Positions 7,192 through 43,125 of a stretch of DNA of 64,000 nucleotides are shown here, in pieces. Under the pieces are notes generated by a model, which saw nothing but the letters and a program-made list of their open reading frames with translations, searched no databases and was not told the origin of the DNA. Location: contig NZ_WHNW01000007.1 in NCBI RefSeq assembly GCF_009362845.1, forward strand, positions 25,191 to 89,190, in the 5' to 3' direction. Source of the DNA: Ostreibacterium oceani. Lineage in GTDB: Bacteria > Pseudomonadota > Gammaproteobacteria > Cardiobacteriales > Ostreibacteriaceae. Made by a program: the position numbers and the translations under genes. The first letter of the stretch is position 1; every line of letters begins with the position of its first letter.

Positions 7192-8298
7192 TCAAGCTTG
7201 GTATTGTGAAATGAAGTAAACCGCCAAAGACAAACCGATAGCGCCTAACCCCACCGCCGCGATGATTTTAGGGAGGCTTTTGGGGTAAGTACCAGAAACT
7301 TTACCTGTTTGCCCATTAATAACTACAACATAGTTTTTTCCAGCATATTCAAACCCACTGTACCAAACAGGCAATAGCAGGATTTTATAGGTTGATTGTT
7401 GATAGTGGATTTGTTTGGACTGGATGCGTTGTCGGTCACCGCCAATGTCGCGATAAATTTGTTGCACAATTTGTTGTTCAATGGCGACTTTCGCCTCGCT
7501 GAGTGCCGTGCCGATATCTAACTGGTAGTGTTCGGCTTGATGGCCTGCCAAGTAGGCTGCCGTATAAGGCTTTACCTGTGCTAAATGCCACGGGCGAAGT
7601 TTGCGAATAATGAGTTTGGGAAAGGTTTTTGAGGCATAAACTAACACATCATCAAAAAAACATCGTAGTTTGCCTGTTACGGGTCGCCAAATCGTGCGGG
7701 TATAAACTTCTGTTTGGCTATTGGCTTTTTTTCGCGTTTCACGGATGATTTTGCCACGTTCGCCATGATATTGGACGTTCGCCAGTGTGTCAAATGTCCA
7801 ATACGGCAAATAAACCCCATTGAATTGTTTGGCGTGTCCAGTCAGCCCTTTTAATGCGGCGGGCGCAAACCAACGTTTTTTAAGCCACTGAGCAAATAGT
7901 CGGTCTGTGTCGTGCTGACCAACAACAAACGGAATTAACCCATCAATGTGTAAGGTTTGTTGGGTGATGTCCATTTTGGCAATGGGGCTTTTGCAATACG
8001 GGCAACGCCCTGCGATTTCATTTTGTTGCCAGATAAAACTTGCACCGCACCGCGTGCAATCAATGGCTGTTTTGGCGTTAGGTGCTGTGAGTGGCTGACG
8101 CTGGATATTCGCTATGGCGGCATCTAACGATTGTTCGCGAAGCGCCAAAGGCGCGTTTGTCGTATGATCAGCATGGGTAATCGGGGTGTGCCACCCACAT
8201 GATTGGCAATGTAGCGCGTGTTTGCCAGCTTGGTAGTGGACACTGGCGCCGCATTGATCACAGCGAAATTCGTAGATTTTAGCCTGTTTCGGATGCAT
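7192..8298 (-). CDS. Double zinc-ribbon protein with C-terminal membrane anchor
   Basis: Two Cys4 ribbons open the protein: Cys13/16/31/34 (FRCDQCGAS ... CQSCGW) and a second CTRCGAS ... CPYCKSP near residues 80-105. A long uncharacterised middle domain follows (YLPYWTFDTLANVQYHGERG), then a single hydrophobic span near 345-363. Proteins of this plan are often called TFIIB-type or primosomal-like zinc-ribbon proteins, but no DNA-related function is shown. It lies downstream of the XpaC-like, TelA and SPFH genes in one leftward array (78 bp gap), suggesting a shared membrane-linked process. Function unknown. Confidence 0.75.
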   Translation of the reverse strand: MHPKQAKIYEFRCDQCGASVHYQAGKHALHCQSCGWHTPITHADHTTNAPLALREQSLDAAIANIQRQPLTAPNAKTAIDCTRCGASFIWQQNEIAGRCPYCKSPIAKMDITQQTLHIDGLIPFVVGQHDTDRLFAQWLKKRWFAPAALKGLTGHAKQFNGVYLPYWTFDTLANVQYHGERGKIIRETRKKANSQTEVYTRTIWRPVTGKLRCFFDDVLVYASKTFPKLIIRKLRPWHLAQVKPYTAAYLAGHQAEHYQLDIGTALSEAKVAIEQQIVQQIYRDIGGDRQRIQSKQIHYQQSTYKILLLPVWYSGFEYAGKNYVVVINGQTGKVSGTYPKSLPKIIAAVGLGAIGLSLAVYFISQYQA

Positions 8299-8310
8299 GC
8301 TTGCTACGCT

Positions 8311-8337
8311 GGGATACTAGGGATACTAGGGATACTA
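8311..8337. repeat. Three 9-bp direct repeats
   Basis: The unit gggatacta is repeated three times head to tail, just upstream of the zinc-ribbon gene start. Confidence 0.9.
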
Positions 8338-8376
8338 TAACTGACCACGGAAATTATATCACCTAACGTATCCGTG

Positions 8377-9453
8377 CTAGCGTTGGCTTGACGGTGAAAA
8401 TGGCGGCGGAATCGCGTTTGTTTCAAATTCAGACATCATTTCTAGCGCCATCCATTCTTTCATGCCTTTTTTCCAGCACATGGTCTCTGAATTAATGTCA
8501 TGATTAAGCAGCATATCTTGCACCGTATTTAGTGCCAGTGGCCCTACGCGCTGACCATTGACCATCAAATAATACGTCTTGGGTAATTGCGGAATGACGG
8601 GGTCGTTTTCTTGGGTCATTTCTCGTGCCATTTGCATCCCGAGTGCCATACCAACGCCGGCAGAAGCCATATCGCTACCCGAACCGCCTGATTCCATCCC
8701 TTTTGCGGCTTGCATCTGCGTATAAGCCCCCAAATCATCACCCAGAATAGTCAAGCCGGTCTTATCATCTAGCACTTGTTGGACTTTTTCAGGTAATGAA
8801 ATGTTTTCAATATACAATTGACCAATTTCTAAGCCATAAGCCGCAAATTCTGTTGCGGTCGCCTTGGTGACAGAGCTGGCTAACTCGCTGTATTTGCTCG
8901 CCAAAGTCGAGATGCTAAATGCTTCGCTGGCCAATTGCTCAGAAAATCGTGCAACCAGTGCTTGAGAGAGGTGTTCGCTGACTTCATCGATTTCAAAATT
9001 GCCATCGGTTCCGACCAGTTTTCGAAAAAATACCGCCGCATCGGCGATGCGAATGGTGTAAGACCCAAAAGCACGCAGGCGAATGAGTCCCACCGTCTGG
9101 TCTGTTAATGTAATGGCTTGTTTTGTCCCCCATTTTAGGGATAAAAAATCGGTCGTGTTAAAAAAATAAACCTCTGCCTTAAACGGACTTTCAAATCCAT
9201 GTTGCCAGTGCTGTAGTGACGATAAAACAGGTAGGTTTTCCGTTTTTAATTCATAAATGCCTGGGGTGAATACATCGGCTAGCTGCCCTAAATTAACCAA
9301 AATGGCGACCTGCCCTTCTCTGACAGTCAGTTTAGCGCCAAATTTAATTTCATTTCGGTAGCGCGGAAAGCGATACGCCATCGTGCTATCATCGGTTTGT
9401 GTCCATTCGATGATATCAACTAACTCACCACCTAGCCAATTCATTAACCCCAT
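8377..9453 (-). CDS. SPFH-domain protein with C-terminal GYF_2 domain (YdjI/virion-core-like)
   Basis: 358 residues. The N-terminal two thirds fits the SPFH/virion-core protein family related to Bacillus YdjI: an early GGELVDIIEW, then GQVAILVNLGQLADVFTPGIYEL, followed by an SPFH-like region and helix with ATEFAAYGLEIGQLYIENISLP. After a Gly/Ser/Met-rich linker (~255-285) comes a GYF_2-type module (YYLMVNGQRVGPL ... MCWKKGMKEWMAL), likely peptide-binding. SPFH proteins scaffold membrane microdomains; that role here is inference. It lies between telA and the zinc-ribbon gene, the usual company of this family. Confidence 0.85.
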   Translation of the reverse strand: MGLMNWLGGELVDIIEWTQTDDSTMAYRFPRYRNEIKFGAKLTVREGQVAILVNLGQLADVFTPGIYELKTENLPVLSSLQHWQHGFESPFKAEVYFFNTTDFLSLKWGTKQAITLTDQTVGLIRLRAFGSYTIRIADAAVFFRKLVGTDGNFEIDEVSEHLSQALVARFSEQLASEAFSISTLASKYSELASSVTKATATEFAAYGLEIGQLYIENISLPEKVQQVLDDKTGLTILGDDLGAYTQMQAAKGMESGGSGSDMASAGVGMALGMQMAREMTQENDPVIPQLPKTYYLMVNGQRVGPLALNTVQDMLLNHDINSETMCWKKGMKEWMALEMMSEFETNAIPPPFSPSSQR

Positions 9454-28251: not shown

Positions 28252-30192
28252 CTAGCCGATTAGCTTGTTATCATTACGTTTCACCGTAATAATTGACGAG
28301 CGTGGCAATGCGCCATTGCCATCTGGCCAATCGCCACCAGGGTGCTGGATACCAACAAACATGGTGCGTCTATCAACCGACCAGGCTAAGCCTGTCACTT
28401 CACTGCCTTTCGGACCTGTCATAAAACGGACGATTTCACCGGTCACTGGATCGCCAACTAACATCTGGTTGTTACCCATACCGGCAAAGTCGGCTTCATT
28501 ATTGTCCTTGCCGTCTGTCTGAATCCAAATTAAGCCATTCGAATCAAAAGCCATCCCGTCTGGCGAGTTAAACATATTGCCAGCGTTAATATTTTTTGAA
28601 CCACCGTATTCATTGCTATAGACATCTGGATTGCCTGCCATGACATATAAATCCCAGTCGAAAGTATCAGACGCATAGTCATCGTTGTGTGGACGCCAGC
28701 GAACAATCTGACCGTAATGGTTGCTTTCTCGTGGATTCGGACCATTGGTTGGGGTGTCGTCACCGCCCGCATTCGGTTTTACGCCACGATTTTTGTTGTT
28801 CGTCAAGCAGCAATAGCCTTCAACCGCATGTGGGTTGACCCTAATCCATTCAGGGCGATCCATCGTTGTTGCGCCAACGGCAGAGCCTGCCTCTCTGGCA
28901 AAGATAAGGACTTCGGCGAGCGATGCCATGCCTGTTGTTTCAGGGGTTAATGCTAACCACTTACCCGTTCCGTCGTCGTTAAACTTAGCAACATATAGCG
29001 TACCATTATCGAGCAAGCCTTCTGTAGAACCACCAGGGACATAAACGTCTTTAGAAACAAATCGATACAAAAACTCACCACGCTCATCATCGCCCATATA
29101 GACGACAACACGTCCGTCTGGCGCTAATGCTACTTCGGCGTTTTCGTGTTTAAATCGACCAAGCCCCGTATGTTTCACTGGCGTGCTATCGGGTTTGGAT
29201 GGATCAATTTCTACCACCCAGCCAACGCGATGCGGTTCGTTTGGGTTTTTCGCGGTATCGAAACGCGCATCCCATTTATGGTAATCATAACCCCAGCCGT
29301 CAGCGCCGATTCCGTAGCGATCGTATCCGCGGGGCGATTGATTAGGCTTTTGATCTTGTATCGCTTCGCTAGACCCGAAGTAGCCGTTAAAGTTTTCTTC
29401 GCAAGTTAAGTAGGTACCCCAAGGCGTTCTGCCTGAACCACAGTTATTCATCGTACCCAGTGATTTTGTACCTGTTGAATCAGCCGCCGTTTTCATTAAA
29501 TCATGACCCGCCGCTGGCCCCGCAATTTTCATGGGTGAATTGTGAGTGATGCGTCGATTAAATGGGCTATCTTTGACGACTTGCCAGCCGTTTTCACTTT
29601 CTTTGATTTCCATTATCGACACGCCTTGGAGGTTTTGTAATTTTAGTACATCCGCTGCATTTGCTGGCACGCCTTCTTGCTGTGCTGGTAGATTAATGTC
29701 ACGGTTAGTGTATTCGTTATTAATAGCGAGAATTTCATGACCACGATAAGAGAAAATCTCCATTCCATCGGTGTTTTCACCAAAAACGCGATCCGATTTT
29801 TCAACGGCACCACCGCCTTTAGTCACATCATAGCCATCCGCGTCAGAAAATAACGGCTGCCCCCAGCTCACTAGGGTATTCCAGCTATACCCTGCTGGTA
29901 CATGGACAGTCCCATCGGTTTGAATAGGGATAGGGGTAAAGGGAAAGCGGTTTGTGCTGACAGTGCTGGCAGTGCCTGTCGCTGCCGTACTATTGGTTGG
30001 GAATAGCCCCATACCCATCGCCGCCGCTCCAGAACCAAAAGCCAACACACCGCCCAAAAATCCACGGCGGGATATCGCGCGTTCCACAATACGGTCAAAA
30101 TCATTGTCGTTAGGTCGTGGGAAATTTGCCTCATCCCAATCATCGGCTGAGAGTTTGGTAGATACTTTATTACTAGGTTTATCAATTGCCAT
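28252..30192 (-). CDS. phoX: PhoX-family phosphatase (DUF839), Tat-exported
   Basis: 646 residues. Tat signal at 41-60: SRRGFLGGVLAFGSG. The body has PhoX landmarks: GTYLTCEENFNGYFG (whose Cys belongs to the family), RVGWVVEIDP, ENAEVALAPDGRVVVYMGDD and DGMAFDSNGLIWIQTDG. PhoX enzymes release phosphate from organic esters using Ca and Fe cofactors; export of the folded enzyme through Tat fits that. The gene is alone, preceded by a Pho-box-like sequence and followed by a strong terminator, so phosphate-starvation control is likely but inferred. Confidence 0.92.
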   Translation of the reverse strand: MAIDKPSNKVSTKLSADDWDEANFPRPNDNDFDRIVERAISRRGFLGGVLAFGSGAAAMGMGLFPTNSTAATGTASTVSTNRFPFTPIPIQTDGTVHVPAGYSWNTLVSWGQPLFSDADGYDVTKGGGAVEKSDRVFGENTDGMEIFSYRGHEILAINNEYTNRDINLPAQQEGVPANAADVLKLQNLQGVSIMEIKESENGWQVVKDSPFNRRITHNSPMKIAGPAAGHDLMKTAADSTGTKSLGTMNNCGSGRTPWGTYLTCEENFNGYFGSSEAIQDQKPNQSPRGYDRYGIGADGWGYDYHKWDARFDTAKNPNEPHRVGWVVEIDPSKPDSTPVKHTGLGRFKHENAEVALAPDGRVVVYMGDDERGEFLYRFVSKDVYVPGGSTEGLLDNGTLYVAKFNDDGTGKWLALTPETTGMASLAEVLIFAREAGSAVGATTMDRPEWIRVNPHAVEGYCCLTNNKNRGVKPNAGGDDTPTNGPNPRESNHYGQIVRWRPHNDDYASDTFDWDLYVMAGNPDVYSNEYGGSKNINAGNMFNSPDGMAFDSNGLIWIQTDGKDNNEADFAGMGNNQMLVGDPVTGEIVRFMTGPKGSEVTGLAWSVDRRTMFVGIQHPGGDWPDGNGALPRSSIITVKRNDNKLIG

Positions 30193-30271: not shown

Positions 30272-30375
30272 CATCGAATATGTCGTGAATTTTTTTGCTA
30301 ACACCGCTTGCGTGCTTGCTGTAGATTCTCTATAGATTTTCTGTGGATTTTCTATAGATTTGCTGTAGGCCTTTG

Positions 30376-30930
30376 TTAGTGCCAATATGTCATGCCAATT
30401 CCAGTCAGCTTATTGATGTCTTTTTCTGTGATGTCTGTCAACCCTACTTTTCTAATTGAAATTTTCCCTGTATGTTTTGTCGTTTCCATCGTCTCTTTGG
30501 CGTGGTTATATTCTTTTAATATCACTTCCCAGCGATTGGTTATCGTATTTATGCTGGTTGAAATACTGCCTGAAACCCATTTATTGAAATCGTCATAGCC
30601 GATGAGTTCTATTTTTTTAGTTGATTGATTATTTCTGAATTTATAGGTCCAGCTATAAAGACCAGTTCCACCGTTATACCCAGATATCGTCAGGATATTA
30701 TTTGCAAAACTTAATTCAGATAGAAATTCAAAACCTAAAAGGTCATACGAAATGGTATGGTTTTTATTATCAATGTTCAGATGCAGCTCATTTGCACTTG
30801 GCGTGATGATATCGATTTGTCCATTCGAATTGATGTCAGCTTTTAATGTGTTAATACCTAAGCCCGTTTGTTGCGCTTGACTGATAAAAATAGTAAAGCA
30901 GCAAATGACTAATAACGTTGATTTTTTCAT
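30376..30930 (-). CDS. Exported protein of unknown function, Bacteroidota-like (cassette 3)
   Basis: 184 residues with a signal peptide (MKKSTLLVICCFTIFISQAQ) of the style common in Flavobacteriia. Near residue 31 is DINSNGQIDII, a DxNxNGxxD calcium-loop-like motif as in FG-GAP/VCBS repeats, then a beta-rich domain with KKIELIGYDDFNKWVSGSIS. That last part matches the product of the neighbouring cassette (FALIGYDSNEAHRATGEIT), so the two are homologues. AT-rich, Lys/Asn/Ile-rich codon use unlike the flanking housekeeping genes. Function unknown. Confidence 0.7.
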   Translation of the reverse strand: MKKSTLLVICCFTIFISQAQQTGLGINTLKADINSNGQIDIITPSANELHLNIDNKNHTISYDLLGFEFLSELSFANNILTISGYNGGTGLYSWTYKFRNNQSTKKIELIGYDDFNKWVSGSISTSINTITNRWEVILKEYNHAKETMETTKHTGKISIRKVGLTDITEKDINKLTGIGMTYWH

Positions 30931-30969
30931 GTTGTTTTTTTAATTGTTTTTTTGGTTGTTTGGAATGTT

Positions 30970-31044
30970 TGTCAACGGTCGTGGCTATGAGCAGTAGCGG
31001 ATTTCAAGCCACTAATCTTTCGATAGCAACGACCTTTGTTTTAT
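30970..31044 (-). repeat. attC-like recombination site C
   Basis: An imperfect palindrome between two co-directional genes. Inner arms GGTCGTTGCTAT and ATAGCCACGACC (31023-31034 and 30977-30988) pair at 11 of 12. The leftward strand ends with GTTGACA, fitting the GTT-initiated R' box of integron attC sites. Total about 75 bp, within the usual attC range. The opposite R'' box is weak. Confidence 0.55.
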
Positions 31045-31105
31045 TTACTATAGTTTCATTTTATCATCTAAATCCCAATTGCTTATAGCCTTTTTAAGCT
31101 GGCTT

Positions 31106-31807
31106 TTATAAATATATTCCATTAAATGCTAATTCAAACGGTTTTTTAATCGATTTTATCGTCAGTAGTTTTTCAAGATGAAATTCTTTCCATTCTACAG
31201 ATTCAGCTTCGTCATTTGAAAAATTTCCTTTCGATATTTTCATTTTTTTTGTTAAGAAATTAATGCTGTAATCTGTTATTTCCCCAGTTGCTCTATGTGC
31301 TTCATTTGAATCATAACCGATTAATGCAAACTCATTGTTTTGAAAGCGGAATCTATATTTGTGATTAGACATACTCCAACTTCCAGCACTATACCAAAAT
31401 CTAAAATTAATATCCAAAATTCCATTCTTGTTAATACTAAAGCCTTCAAATGGTTCATCCATTGAAGGTGAGTCTCGAAGAATTATAAAATCTTCAGAAA
31501 CTAATTGTTTATTAAAACCTTCTGTTTTAGTCCCAAAGTAAATAGCAAGTATTCTGGGATTTAGGTCAATAGTATCTGCCCCAACCCCATCATTTAATTT
31601 AATATTTTTTCGATCAGTTTTTTGGATTGCAAAAACTAAATCAGAAATACCATCTTGATTTAGGTCTCCAGAAGTGGCATCTAATAGTTTCCAATTATCA
31701 GGAATTAGATCTTCAAGTGTTTCACCAGTATTGGGTAAAATTAATTCACTTTGCCTAAAACCAGTTAGACAGATTAATATTGTAAATATGGTTATTGATT
31801 TCTTCAT
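31106..31807 (-). CDS. Exported VCBS-like protein of unknown function, Bacteroidota-like (cassette 2)
   Basis: The start is taken as the ATG at 31807 (MKKSITIFTILICLTGF, a signal peptide), giving 233 residues. The open frame continues 43 codons further up, but that part is the attC-like hairpin and not protein-like. GDLNQDGISDLVFA near residue 50 is a calcium-loop/FG-GAP-like motif. The C-terminal half parallels the next cassette's protein. Upstream is A-rich with no Shine-Dalgarno, the usual situation in Bacteroidota, so translation in this host is uncertain. Function unknown. Confidence 0.7.
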   Translation of the reverse strand: MKKSITIFTILICLTGFRQSELILPNTGETLEDLIPDNWKLLDATSGDLNQDGISDLVFAIQKTDRKNIKLNDGVGADTIDLNPRILAIYFGTKTEGFNKQLVSEDFIILRDSPSMDEPFEGFSINKNGILDINFRFWYSAGSWSMSNHKYRFRFQNNEFALIGYDSNEAHRATGEITDYSINFLTKKMKISKGNFSNDEAESVEWKEFHLEKLLTIKSIKKPFELAFNGIYL

Positions 31808-31820
31808 TTTTTTAGTTTGC

Positions 31821-31957
31821 AGGTAACGTTTTGCATATGGCATATGGCTTGTGGCGGTTTCGAAGCACTTTCCTGTCCACCGAAACCAAAGCTTGCAACG
31901 GAGCGAAAACCTTGCTGGCAGCCGTTCACCCGCCATAAGCTATATGCTGTGTTGTGC
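31821..31957 (-). repeat. attC-like recombination site B
   Basis: A 137-bp imperfect palindrome. Outer box GCACAAC (complement of 31951-31957) opens it and GTTACCT (complement of 31821-31827) closes it on the leftward strand. Inner arms CATATAGCTTATGGCGG and the complement of CATATGGCTTGTGGCGG pair at 15 of 17. The GCTGCACAAC here is the exact inverse of GTTGTGCAGC at site A, as expected for two ends of one mobile cassette. Confidence 0.65.
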
Positions 31958-31961
31958 AGCG

Positions 31962-32870
31962 TTATTTTTTTATTATTCGTCTAACATCAAATTTCTTAAT
32001 CTCATTTTCTTCAATAAAATCAATATTTAATCTATTGAGATTTGGGATGTCTTGTGATTCGTCAATTATTCTATTCTGAAATTTCAAAATATCATCTGCT
32101 GTTGTAGTTTCTTTACTGTAAACTATCAAAAGCACTGGAACCACGCGTCTGTTAGATGCTTGGTTGTAATATGAAATTTGAGTGTTTATGCGGGAAATTG
32201 TATCTCGAATTATTTTAAGGCTCAATCGATTTCTGAAATACTTTATCTCTACAATTCTGTCTAAGAATCGTTTTGTTTTGGCTTGTAGTAAAATGTCAAT
32301 TTCGTATCGATTTCCTATTCTTTGTTGAGAAAGTACATCAAAATTTGGACTCTTGTAGTTTTCAAATACTTCTGTTATTCCTTTTTCAATCTGCATATAG
32401 GCTTTAACATAATCTGAATGAGTTGAAGGCTTAACAACTGGGGAAGATGTTACTTGTTGCTCGACACTTTCTATTTCTTCAACTTCTTGTTTTGCTTTCT
32501 CTTCTTTTTCTTCAGGTGTCAAAGAGGTTATTTCAAGGTCAAGCTTTTGAAGTTCCTTGTCAAATTTTTCGTCAATTTTTGATTGTCTCTTAAACCATCT
32601 TACTAAACCAATTATTGTTGAAGTTAATCCGAGTAAAAAGAACGAAAGTGAAACCCAAGGGATAAAGATTTGAAACTTGATAACCTGATTTTGTTTCTCT
32701 GTTATCAATTCCTTTATTGGTTCTTGCATTTGGTCAATTTTGGATTGTTCGATATAAAGTCCAAAATCTTCTTTCAAATACAGATATGGAGTCAAGACAG
32801 CCAATGCAATCAAAACTAGTCCGATTGACACTAAAAACTTGTTTATATCTCCGTAATCTATTTTCTGCAT
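31962..32870 (-). CDS. Membrane-anchored protein with PD-(D/E)XK nuclease-like domain (cassette 1)
   Basis: 302 residues. Two membrane spans at ~11-32 and ~66-91, a charged helical linker (~95-140, EEKEEKAKQEVEEIE), then a domain with GNRYEIDILLQ (Asp192) and RIVEIKYFRNR (Glu208, Lys210). That is the D ... ExK arrangement of restriction-endonuclease-fold nucleases, followed by helices and VVPVLLIVYSK strand. Similar membrane-tethered putative nucleases occur among defence proteins; DNA cleavage here is inferred. The gene is flanked by attC-like sites A and B with matching boundary boxes, so it forms a complete cassette. Confidence 0.72.
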   Translation of the reverse strand: MQKIDYGDINKFLVSIGLVLIALAVLTPYLYLKEDFGLYIEQSKIDQMQEPIKELITEKQNQVIKFQIFIPWVSLSFFLLGLTSTIIGLVRWFKRQSKIDEKFDKELQKLDLEITSLTPEEKEEKAKQEVEEIESVEQQVTSSPVVKPSTHSDYVKAYMQIEKGITEVFENYKSPNFDVLSQQRIGNRYEIDILLQAKTKRFLDRIVEIKYFRNRLSLKIIRDTISRINTQISYYNQASNRRVVPVLLIVYSKETTTADDILKFQNRIIDESQDIPNLNRLNIDFIEENEIKKFDVRRIIKK

Positions 32871-32888
32871 TCAGTTTGTTTTAATGCT

Positions 32889-32939
32889 GCACAACATCCG
32901 AATAAACGAACATTCGTTTATCGGGGCTATACGTTATAC
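32889..32939 (-). repeat. attC-like recombination site A
   Basis: Hairpin arms CCGAATAAACGAA (32898-32910) and TTCGTTTATCGG (32913-32924) pair fully except for one unpaired A, resembling the extrahelical bases of attC sites. On the leftward strand it opens with GTATAAC and closes with GTTGTGC. A partial second copy of one arm (TTCGTTTATTGG) lies at ~32946-32957. At 51 bp it is short for attC. Confidence 0.5.
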
Positions 32940-33087
32940 TAAAAGTTCGTTTATTGGTCATCATATCTGAGTTATAGATACAAAGCAATCTTTGTGATTC
33001 GTCTTTCAGCGCCAGTTAGCATGACCTGTTTTTTTATCAGACGGCCACTAATGTGGCGTAGTTGGCGTATCTGACGCGTTTGACACT

Positions 33088-34413
33088 TTATGACGCATCT
33101 GACGCATTTGCCAATAAACCATCACCACAGCACCAGCCTGATGCCCACGCCCACTGAAAATTATATCCACCCAGCCAACCCGTGACATTAACCGCCTCGC
33201 CGATAAAGTACAGCGAAGGTTGTTTGTGGCACGCGAAGTTTTTGGATGACAATTCATGCGTTAGCACCCCGCCGAGGCTGACTTCGGCTTTTTTCATGCC
33301 TTCTGTACCTGCTGGATGCATTGGCCAATGATGCAGATGTTCAGCAATATGCGCAAGCTGCTTATGGCTAAGCTGCTGCAAGGTAATACCCGATGCCATC
33401 ACTTCGGTCTGGGCTGTCGTGTCTGTGATTGCTGGCATGGGTTGTGGCATGGGTTGCGATATGAGCTGCGGCATGATTTTTGATATAAGTTGCTCGGTGA
33501 GTTGCTGGGTTAGTTTTTTAGAGAAAACACCCGTCAGGACTTGCACCAGTGTTTTGTTAGGTGATTGTTTTTTGGCGTCCAGCAACCTGGGTAACAAAGC
33601 GGTCTCGGGTGAAAAGTCAATCTCGATTGGATGGCCCTTTTGCCAATAGGACGAGATTTGTAAAATAGCAGGCCCGCTCAATCCTCGGTGGGTAAATAAT
33701 AGATTTTCGTCAAATGCTTGTGTTGTGTTTTGTGCGGTCGTGCTTTGTGTGGTCGTTTGTACGCGCACAAACTGCGAAACACCAGCAAGCGCCGCATAGG
33801 TCTTGAGGTCGTTAGCCGATAGCGTCAACGGGACTAACGCGGGGGAAAACGGCTGATTGTCGATGTGAAACTGTTTGGCAATTCGCAGGGCGATATCTTC
33901 GCCACCAATTTTGGGGATAGAGGGACCACCAGTGGCAACCACCAGTTGTTTACCGTAAAACTGCCCGTAATCCGTGTCTAGGGTATAGCGATTATCGTAA
34001 TTAATCTGGCTCACCGTAACACCATATCGACTCTCCACGCCGTGTTGCGACGCTTCGCTGACGAGCATATCAATAATGGCTTGGGATTTTTGGTCACAAA
34101 ACAACTGCCCTAACGTTTTTTCGTGATACGTCAGCCCATAACGCGACATCAATTCGATAAAATGCCACGGCGTATAGCGTGCGAGTGCGGACTTGCTAAA
34201 ATGTGGATTATCAGATAAATAGGCTAAATGACTGGTGTGTATATTCGTAAAATTACAACGCCCACCGCCTGAAATACGGATTTTATTGCCTGCTTGTTGT
34301 TTTTTTTCAATGAGCAATACCGCCAGACCGCGCTCAGCCGCACGAATGGCGCACATTAGCCCTGCTGCGCCAGCACCGAGTATTATGACATCGTAGCAGC
34401 GTTCTTTATTCAC
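33088..34413 (-). CDS. HI0933/BaiN-family flavoprotein (YhiN-like)
   Basis: 441 residues. FAD-binding [17 protein letters not shown] is at ~13-30, followed by the family hallmark [15 protein letters not shown] near 45-58; the C-terminus has [16 protein letters not shown] and [22 protein letters not shown]. Members are flavoproteins of unclear substrate; some are annotated as aminoacetone oxidases or BaiN-like reductases. A Met/Pro/Gln repeat (QPMPQPMPA) forms an insertion near residue 320. Its start overlaps the uvrA stop by 4 bp, suggesting cotranscription. Confidence 0.9.
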
Positions 34414-42111: not shown

Positions 42112-43125
42112 ATGACAAATCACGGACACACCAATTATCATCAGCAACCATTTGACCGTATTGAAAACGAAATACCGTCTTTTTTGCGACACCTAACCGC
42201 CGAGCGCCAGCTATCAGCGCTTACCGTCTCTAGCTATGCGCGCGATTTAAATCAATTTATTGGGTGGCTTAGTCGCGCGGAATTGCCGACAGTTGATGCG
42301 CGTACCATTCAGTATTATCTGGCCTATTTATCACGTAAAAATATGGCACCCAGCAGCATTGCGAGACAATTGTCATCGCTTAGACAATATTTTAACTATC
42401 TGGTGCAATTGAAATTTATCGCGGTAAACCCTGTCAGCGACATTCGCCCACCGAAACAAGTCAAAAAACTCCCCAATGCACTCAGCGTTGATAAACTCAG
42501 TCAATTGCTTGATACCGCCCATGCTTCGATAGACATGACTTCACCACTAAGTATCAGGGATATGGCGATGATTGAATTATTATACAGCTCAGGGATTCGT
42601 GTTGCCGAATTGGCTGGCTTAAACCTGAGCGATATTGACTTGACCGACAATCAGATGCGCGTACTCGGCAAAGGCAACAAACCGCGTATTGCATTAATTG
42701 GGCAGTTAGCGAAAATCGCGCTGACAAACTGGCTAGCGATTCGCAAGCAGTGGTTACAACAAGACTCAAAGCAGCCCACTGAGCCCACTCAATTAAGCGA
42801 TGCCCTATTTATCTCTGATAAAGGGTCGCGCTTGAGTATACGTAGTATCCAGCTACGCATCAAAGCGTGGGGTAAAGCGCTAGACGCCAATCTGGATTTG
42901 CACCCGCATTTATTTCGCCATAGTTTTGCTAGCCATTTACTGCAATCTAGCGGCGACCTGCGTGCCGTCCAAGAACTCTTGGGGCATAGCGATATTAGCA
43001 GTACACAGGTCTACACGCACCTTGATTTTCAACACCTTGCCAGTGTCTATGACAAGGCACACCCACGCGCTAAGAAAAATATAGACAAGGCAGACAAAGC
43101 AGAAAAGGCAGACAGGGCAGACTGA
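42112..43125 (+). CDS. xerC: Tyrosine recombinase XerC
   Basis: Resolves chromosome dimers at dif with XerD. 337 residues: N-terminal SAM-like DNA-binding domain (~18-105) and catalytic domain with Arg163 (SSGIRVAEL), Lys187, His266 and Arg269 (HLFRH), His292 (LGHSD) and nucleophile Tyr301 (QVYTH). XerC rather than XerD is inferred from overall fit. A Lys/Ala/Asp-repeat tail (DKADKAEKADRAD) extends the C-terminus. An N-terminal His/Gln stretch (residues 3-13) precedes the fold. Confidence 0.9.
   Translation: MTNHGHTNYHQQPFDRIENEIPSFLRHLTAERQLSALTVSSYARDLNQFIGWLSRAELPTVDARTIQYYLAYLSRKNMAPSSIARQLSSLRQYFNYLVQLKFIAVNPVSDIRPPKQVKKLPNALSVDKLSQLLDTAHASIDMTSPLSIRDMAMIELLYSSGIRVAELAGLNLSDIDLTDNQMRVLGKGNKPRIALIGQLAKIALTNWLAIRKQWLQQDSKQPTEPTQLSDALFISDKGSRLSIRSIQLRIKAWGKALDANLDLHPHLFRHSFASHLLQSSGDLRAVQELLGHSDISSTQVYTHLDFQHLASVYDKAHPRAKKNIDKADKAEKADRAD

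Follow-up and report, generated by a model that had tools for sequence, protein, structure and literature searches.

In canonical integrons the R boxes are 7 nt long, and a cluster of attC sites that lacks an integron integrase is reportedly what is termed a CALIN in the IntegronFinder work of Cury et al. The CALIN criterion used here was at least two attC sites within 4 kb and no integron integrase. Surveys of Bacteroidetes described only In0 elements at first and later one complete integron, in Salinibacter ruber (PMC9024848), and no Bacteroidota are found among the 11 taxon-specific attC models (PMC8352920). Our literature search, which left preprints and most subscription journals outside its reach, returned nothing on dispersed attI sites or on non-IntI cassette systems in Bacteroidota.

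In the window, i.e. the whole stretch of 64,000 nucleotides that was analysed, an insert of three AT-rich cassettes is found on the minus strand at 30370-33017 within a gammaproteobacterial chromosome, with baiN (33088-34413) on one side and a PhoX gene (28252-30192) on the other. The GC content of the insert is 30-35% versus 46-49% in the flanks, and its GC3 values are 0.18-0.37 versus 0.44-0.50 for the flanking genes. A first-pass annotation had proposed here an isolated array of Bacteroidota-type cassettes, with three leftward AT-rich genes, three cassette hairpins and no integron integrase; on re-check, all the sequence features that it described were found to be present, and the genes correspond to three minus-strand ORFs of 302, 233 and 184 aa. 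At the 3' junction with host DNA (30280..30375, minus strand) no recognisable attC-like site remains: the inverse of GTTGACAAAC was searched for and not found, and the covariance model described below (R1) gave no match.

Cassette 1 (31826..32894, minus strand) extends from the TT of the leader core to the G of the next core, assuming a crossover at G^TT as in integrons, and is made up of the 302-aa gene and an attC-like site. GTTGTGCAGC starts the unit on the minus strand, with its core GTT at 32893-32895, and the exact inverse, GCTGCACAAC (31951-31960), is located directly 3' of the stop codon of the gene, so the two flank the unit in the way that had been claimed for the ends of one cassette. 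The attC-like site 1 (31815..31963, minus strand) contains GCTGCACAAC as its R'' box and has its R' core GTT at 31825-31827. The 302-aa protein (31962..32870, minus strand) has two predicted hydrophobic segments near its N terminus and, by eye only, a C-terminal D-x(n)-E-x-K pattern resembling PD-(D/E)XK nucleases; it has no Pfam match and its AlphaFold model is unreliable (pLDDT 51). Residues 1-66 share 70% identity with a protein from a Bacteroidetes MAG, the gene of which adjoins another cassette of the same type, and searches of plasmids, of viral contigs and of the remaining 394 Bacteroidota genomes yielded no relatives; the sole relative found thus supports the proposed Bacteroidota origin.

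A BLAST search with the 149-base hairpin of cassette 1 gave matches in 29 of 395 Bacteroidota genomes, the sample being the phylum of G040 (genome of record 'Bacteroidetes bacterium isolate B17_G6'), where 'phylum' is meant in the sense of the collection's taxonomy and possibly takes in groups like Ignavibacteria and Chlorobi. The best four relatives are 93, 89, 87 and 84% identical, and the likeness ends near the R''/R' boundaries. The R1 covariance model was made from ten such elements, including the window element and near relatives, and its consensus stem shows compensatory changes at 9 of 14 pairs. R1 matched in 165 of the 395 genomes and, among 134 genomes comprising the host and 133 of its relatives (none from the host's own family), in the host alone, which again agrees with a Bacteroidota origin. 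Site 1 itself, a member of the training set, scores 143 bits (E=6.5e-32). DNA folding z-scores against shuffled sequences, for the minus and plus strands respectively, were -2.9 and -2.6 at 32885-32945 and -3.6 and -2.6 at 30966-31048, and only -0.7 and -1.7 for the 149-nt element; since the folding evidence is weak for this main element, it is homology and covariation that carry the case. We also considered whether the 149-nt element belongs to a host palindrome family and rejected this because it occurs once in the host, and Rfam returned no match to a known RNA family.

The gene of cassette 2 (233 aa, 31106..31807, minus strand) has a signal-peptide-like start and an FG-GAP-like stretch, the FG-GAP match being weak and under the cut-off. 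It is followed by attC-like site 2 (30964..31106, minus strand), in which R'' is decayed and the R' core GTT is at 30974-30976; this site lies outside the training set and matches R1 with 39 bits (E=3e-7), and a close relative with an intact R'' is found in the host at C10:81032. The hairpin had been placed at 30970-31044, and while the element is real, the model match places it better at 30964-31106. Of the three hairpins that had been assigned to cassettes, two are attC-like sites, whereas the first (32889-32939) is contained in the end of an attI-like leader. Cassette 3 carries a 184-aa gene (30376..30930, minus strand), also with a signal-peptide-like start, whose product weakly resembles the 233-aa protein (BLASTP E=0.02). 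Intact inverse ends are retained in the window by cassette 1 only, those of cassettes 2 and 3 being decayed. No function has been established for any of the cassette proteins.

In Bacteroidota contigs, R1 elements lie on one strand, mostly at 0.5-3 kb spacing and 3' of stop codons. In 88 of 112 elements, a stretch of 9-10 bases that ends in AAC is matched by its exact inverse lying at an upstream GTT site, where 3.5 are expected from swapping the ends between loci; none of the matches reaches 11 nt and none stops at 8, hence the end repeat is sharply 9-10 nt. The same rule is obeyed at all four clear host loci, with ends of 10 nt for cassette 1 of the window and of 9-10 nt at the loci on C3, C10 and C1. 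Several arrays carry restriction-modification genes. As a separate observation, in G266 (L206 and L262, G266:C1:2129363 to about 2184000) successive R1 elements set out from a recombinase and are encountered again 38-55 kb further along, on the same strand and with ~1-kb spacing, and this array may exceed 50 kb, its middle part being unseen.

The array in the window begins at a leader of ~120 bp (32893..33017, minus strand; upstream edge approximate), which ends in CGAATAAACGAA..TTCGTTTATTCGGAT|GTT. The first-pass annotation regarded the cluster as isolated, and this does not hold, since no fewer than three other clear loci of this kind, and two or three damaged ones, exist in the host. Its six R1 elements occupy four loci, the window, C3:112729, C10:81032 together with 79673, and C1:90614, and all four open with one and the same leader, ...CGAATAAACGAACTTTTAGTATAACCTATAGCCCCGATAAACGAATGTTCGTTTATTCGGAT|GTT, after which comes a cassette; the inverse ends of the first cassettes are GTTGTGCAGC, GTTAGCAAGC, GTTGGTGGCA and GTTGTGCGT. 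A fifth leader copy at C1:1860 is 90% identical and has part of an attC-like element downstream of it, and a sixth at C4:127794 is truncated and has lost the hairpin.

Several further observations were made on leader-like sequences in the host. From C4:127794 onward (L257) the leader is followed by genes for 622, 294 and 1043 aa that by eye resemble a type III restriction-modification operon. At C13:20147-21597 (L255) a P4-type integrase gene lies beside a tRNA-like end, a related leader tail (CCCCAATTGTTCGTTTATTGGGATGTTACCCACC, C13:21578) is found ~260 bp past this gene, and two AT-rich genes follow on the other strand. The host has a type I-F-like CRISPR array (repeat GTTCACTGCCGCACAGGCAGCTTAGAAA), and in one of its spacers, at C3:150610-150629 (L258), a variant of the leader tail is continued by a start resembling that of a cassette (TGTTCGTTTATCGGGATGTTGTAGGCAA), as though a mobile element had brought in a leader-cassette junction; taken alone, the match of 20 bases has E=0.48.

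Leaders specific to a genome start separate arrays in Bacteroidota as well, with three copies in G263, two in G152, three in G045 and two in G213. One copy is directly downstream of a recombinase in both G045 and G152, and the leader of G213 matches the recombinase-adjacent site of G092. Because leaders are repeated both in the host and in Bacteroidota, with copies beside a recombinase, the leader is best read as a copy of attI, its use as an insertion point being inferred. The host leader shares the ...GAT|GTT end with sites beside short divergent recombinases (L203, L207 and L208), not the overall sequence; with some of the Bacteroidota attI-like sites it has its architecture in common as well, and without a likeness in overall sequence its origin is not proven.

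Regarding the enzyme, canonical IntI (TIGR02249) was detected in 112 of the 395 Bacteroidota genomes at E<=1e-40, and in 105 above the NCBIfam cut-off, a number exceeding what published surveys suggest, which differences in taxonomy may explain in part. Its presence is unrelated to that of R1 (43 of 165 R1-positive versus 69 of 230 R1-negative genomes, p=0.43, odds ratio 0.82), and canonical IntI was rejected as the partner enzyme for want of association across these same genomes. Scanning of the array neighbourhoods yielded a different tyrosine recombinase that is Xer-like, scores under the IntI cut-off, has its nearest structures and profiles among the XerA type (4a8e, 5hxy; NF040815) and often has an extra N-terminal region. 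The spacing from K-G-x-K to H-x-x-R-H is 61-70 residues in this recombinase versus 106 in 11 of 11 IntI proteins; judged by its sequence, it is without the IntI-specific insertion. In the tree, array recombinases and IntI are joined against XerC/D (support 100/99), with IntI on its own long branch, and the monophyly of the array recombinases with respect to IntI and Xer is unresolved (support 33/32).

The array recombinase was found in 31 of 40 element-rich and 5 of 40 element-free genomes (p=5e-9), and canonical IntI in 7 and 9 of these, respectively. In this comparison the positives were picked for R1 richness, the Fisher tests were uncorrected for shared ancestry, and the recombinase counts come from a three-sequence profile with a strict cut-off, 9 of the 40 element-rich genomes being without a match. 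Stretches of up to 20 kb around 40 array recombinases (732 kb) contain 104 R1 elements, with at least one at 32 loci, and all 104 are on the side and strand pointing away from the recombinase, while no R1 elements were detected in 20 control stretches taken from these genomes (400 kb in total) or in ten neighbourhoods of canonical IntI. The recombinase runs with the cassettes at 24 loci and is divergent at 8, the divergent ones all being short (246-306 aa). Within the host, no array-type recombinase was detected at E<=1e-55, and the reported lack of an integron integrase was upheld by a TIGR02249 search of the genome, which gave none above the cut-off. A recombinase gene elsewhere in the window (42112..43125, plus strand), outside the insert, is XerC/D-like, with 62-66 bits against TIGR02249 versus a cut-off of 265, and it groups with the Xer rows in the tree, belonging to neither IntI nor the array-linked family.

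Two further neighbourhoods were noted. In G152 (L139, G152:C1:753003-758000) a piece of a gene for canonical IntI adjoins a broken array-type recombinase, the parts of which lie ~2.7 kb apart. A 10.8-kb contig of a viral collection (L071, IMGVR_UViG_3300037042_007159) has at 7905-9333 a short, related recombinase in divergent orientation to an R1 element, the first cassette having 9-nt inverse ends, GTTATCGGC / GCCGATAAC, and a contig of this kind is a possible vehicle for transfer.

In light of these data, the insert is probably an array of three cassettes, devoid of its recombinase, that was acquired across phyla from an integron-type system of Bacteroidota in which attI copies are dispersed; that recombination takes place is an inference. 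What the sequences show directly is the homology, the cassette ends, the linkage and its polarity, the repeated leaders and the lack of both enzymes in the host. The recombinase, whose identity is likewise inferred, would use the attC-like hairpin folded from one strand, and would join a circular cassette to an attI copy at its GTT core, with crossover at G^TT, as IntI does; neither the strand folding nor the crossover point goes beyond inference. Leaders and cassettes may have reached the host from Bacteroidota, an inferred transfer, probably on mobile elements, and with the recombinase now absent from the host its arrays would be frozen and decaying.

The insert could instead be an ordinary CALIN, in which cassettes of canonical integrons were inserted by a canonical IntI elsewhere, at attI or at off-target attG-type sites. 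CALINs and off-target insertion are both established (PMC8618304; Loot et al. 2024, doi 10.1038/s41564-023-01548-y, as cited in PMC11023631), and the enzyme is common enough in Bacteroidota, with 105 genomes above the cut-off, but R1 is not associated with IntI genomes in either comparison, the ten IntI neighbourhoods lack R1 elements, and one conserved leader begins every host array, unlike the variable attG sites; we regard this reading as unlikely. That the leader is palindromic and present at six places in the host would also suit a small palindromic repeat of the host itself, into which cassettes were inserted repeatedly by happenstance, and no match to the leader was found on known plasmids, phages and viral contigs or in the Bacteroidota stretches examined. 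However, none of the six copies is empty, each being followed by AT-rich, cassette-like DNA, and Bacteroidota genomes have leaders of their own in the same arrangement, with one copy adjoining the recombinase, which makes a host repeat very improbable. An assembly error or contamination combined with chance palindromes is scarcely credible: although the host genome (2.18 Mb) is a draft of 36 contigs and the main element does not stand out strongly by its folding alone, the insertions are on four contigs within host-like flanks, the UvrA adjoining the insert is 68-69% identical to the UvrA of Aeromonas and E. coli, and homology, covariation and the cassette rule are all above chance.

Returning to the recombinase-less array of Bacteroidota type, we propose, tentatively and as a possibility that may well fail, that Bacteroidota have a widespread second cassette-capture system, related to integrons, with an insertion-less Xer-like recombinase and with attI present in several copies on the chromosome, in short a distributed integron, which may preserve the state before the IntI insertion and can move between phyla. 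One attC-like type is present in ~40% of the sampled Bacteroidota genomes and is linked to a non-IntI recombinase. Should the enzyme act in the inferred way, current tools would be overlooking a large reservoir of cassettes, integron-like traffic would not depend on the IntI-specific insertion, dispersed attI copies would allow several arrays per genome, and both the origin of integrons and the movement of cassettes across phyla would become directly testable.

Compared with known systems, the arrays share with integrons the one-strand arrangement of single-gene cassettes, hairpin sites with a GTT core, inverse cassette ends, an attI-like start site and, in Bacteroidota, a tyrosine recombinase at the array start. 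They differ in that the recombinase is without the IntI insertion and under the IntI cut-off, often shares the orientation of the cassettes and carries additional N-terminal sequence, that the cassette ends are 9-10 nt instead of 7, and that several attI copies occur per chromosome. The attC criterion of canonical integrons (inverse ends, GTT core, imperfect hairpin) is fulfilled, attI-like leaders, whose role as insertion points is inferred, adjoin the recombinase in Bacteroidota and occur in the host where that enzyme is lacking, and neither in the array nor near it is there an IntI that carries the specific insertion, for which reason we speak of a variant of the integron kind and not of an integron. 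By R1, which is our own model and not that of IntegronFinder, the window meets the CALIN criterion, with two elements ~0.85 kb apart in a genome without integrase; it differs from CALINs in starting at a conserved attI-like leader repeated at other loci, and its attC type is not among the published taxon models (PMC8352920). Off-target insertion at attG sites, as reported by Loot et al. 2024, likewise accounts for cassettes scattered outside a main array, whereas the scattered host arrays all have a copy of a single conserved leader at their start. By structures and profiles the array recombinase comes closest to the XerA type, and it differs from the XerA, XerC and XerD recombinases in its position at the start of cassette arrays and in grouping with IntI against the host XerC/D-type rows. 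Among the traits of the Bacteroidota array system, R1-type sites with 9-10-nt ends and a repeated leader are present in the window and host and an array-type recombinase in the genome is not, making the window a recombinase-less member of that system.
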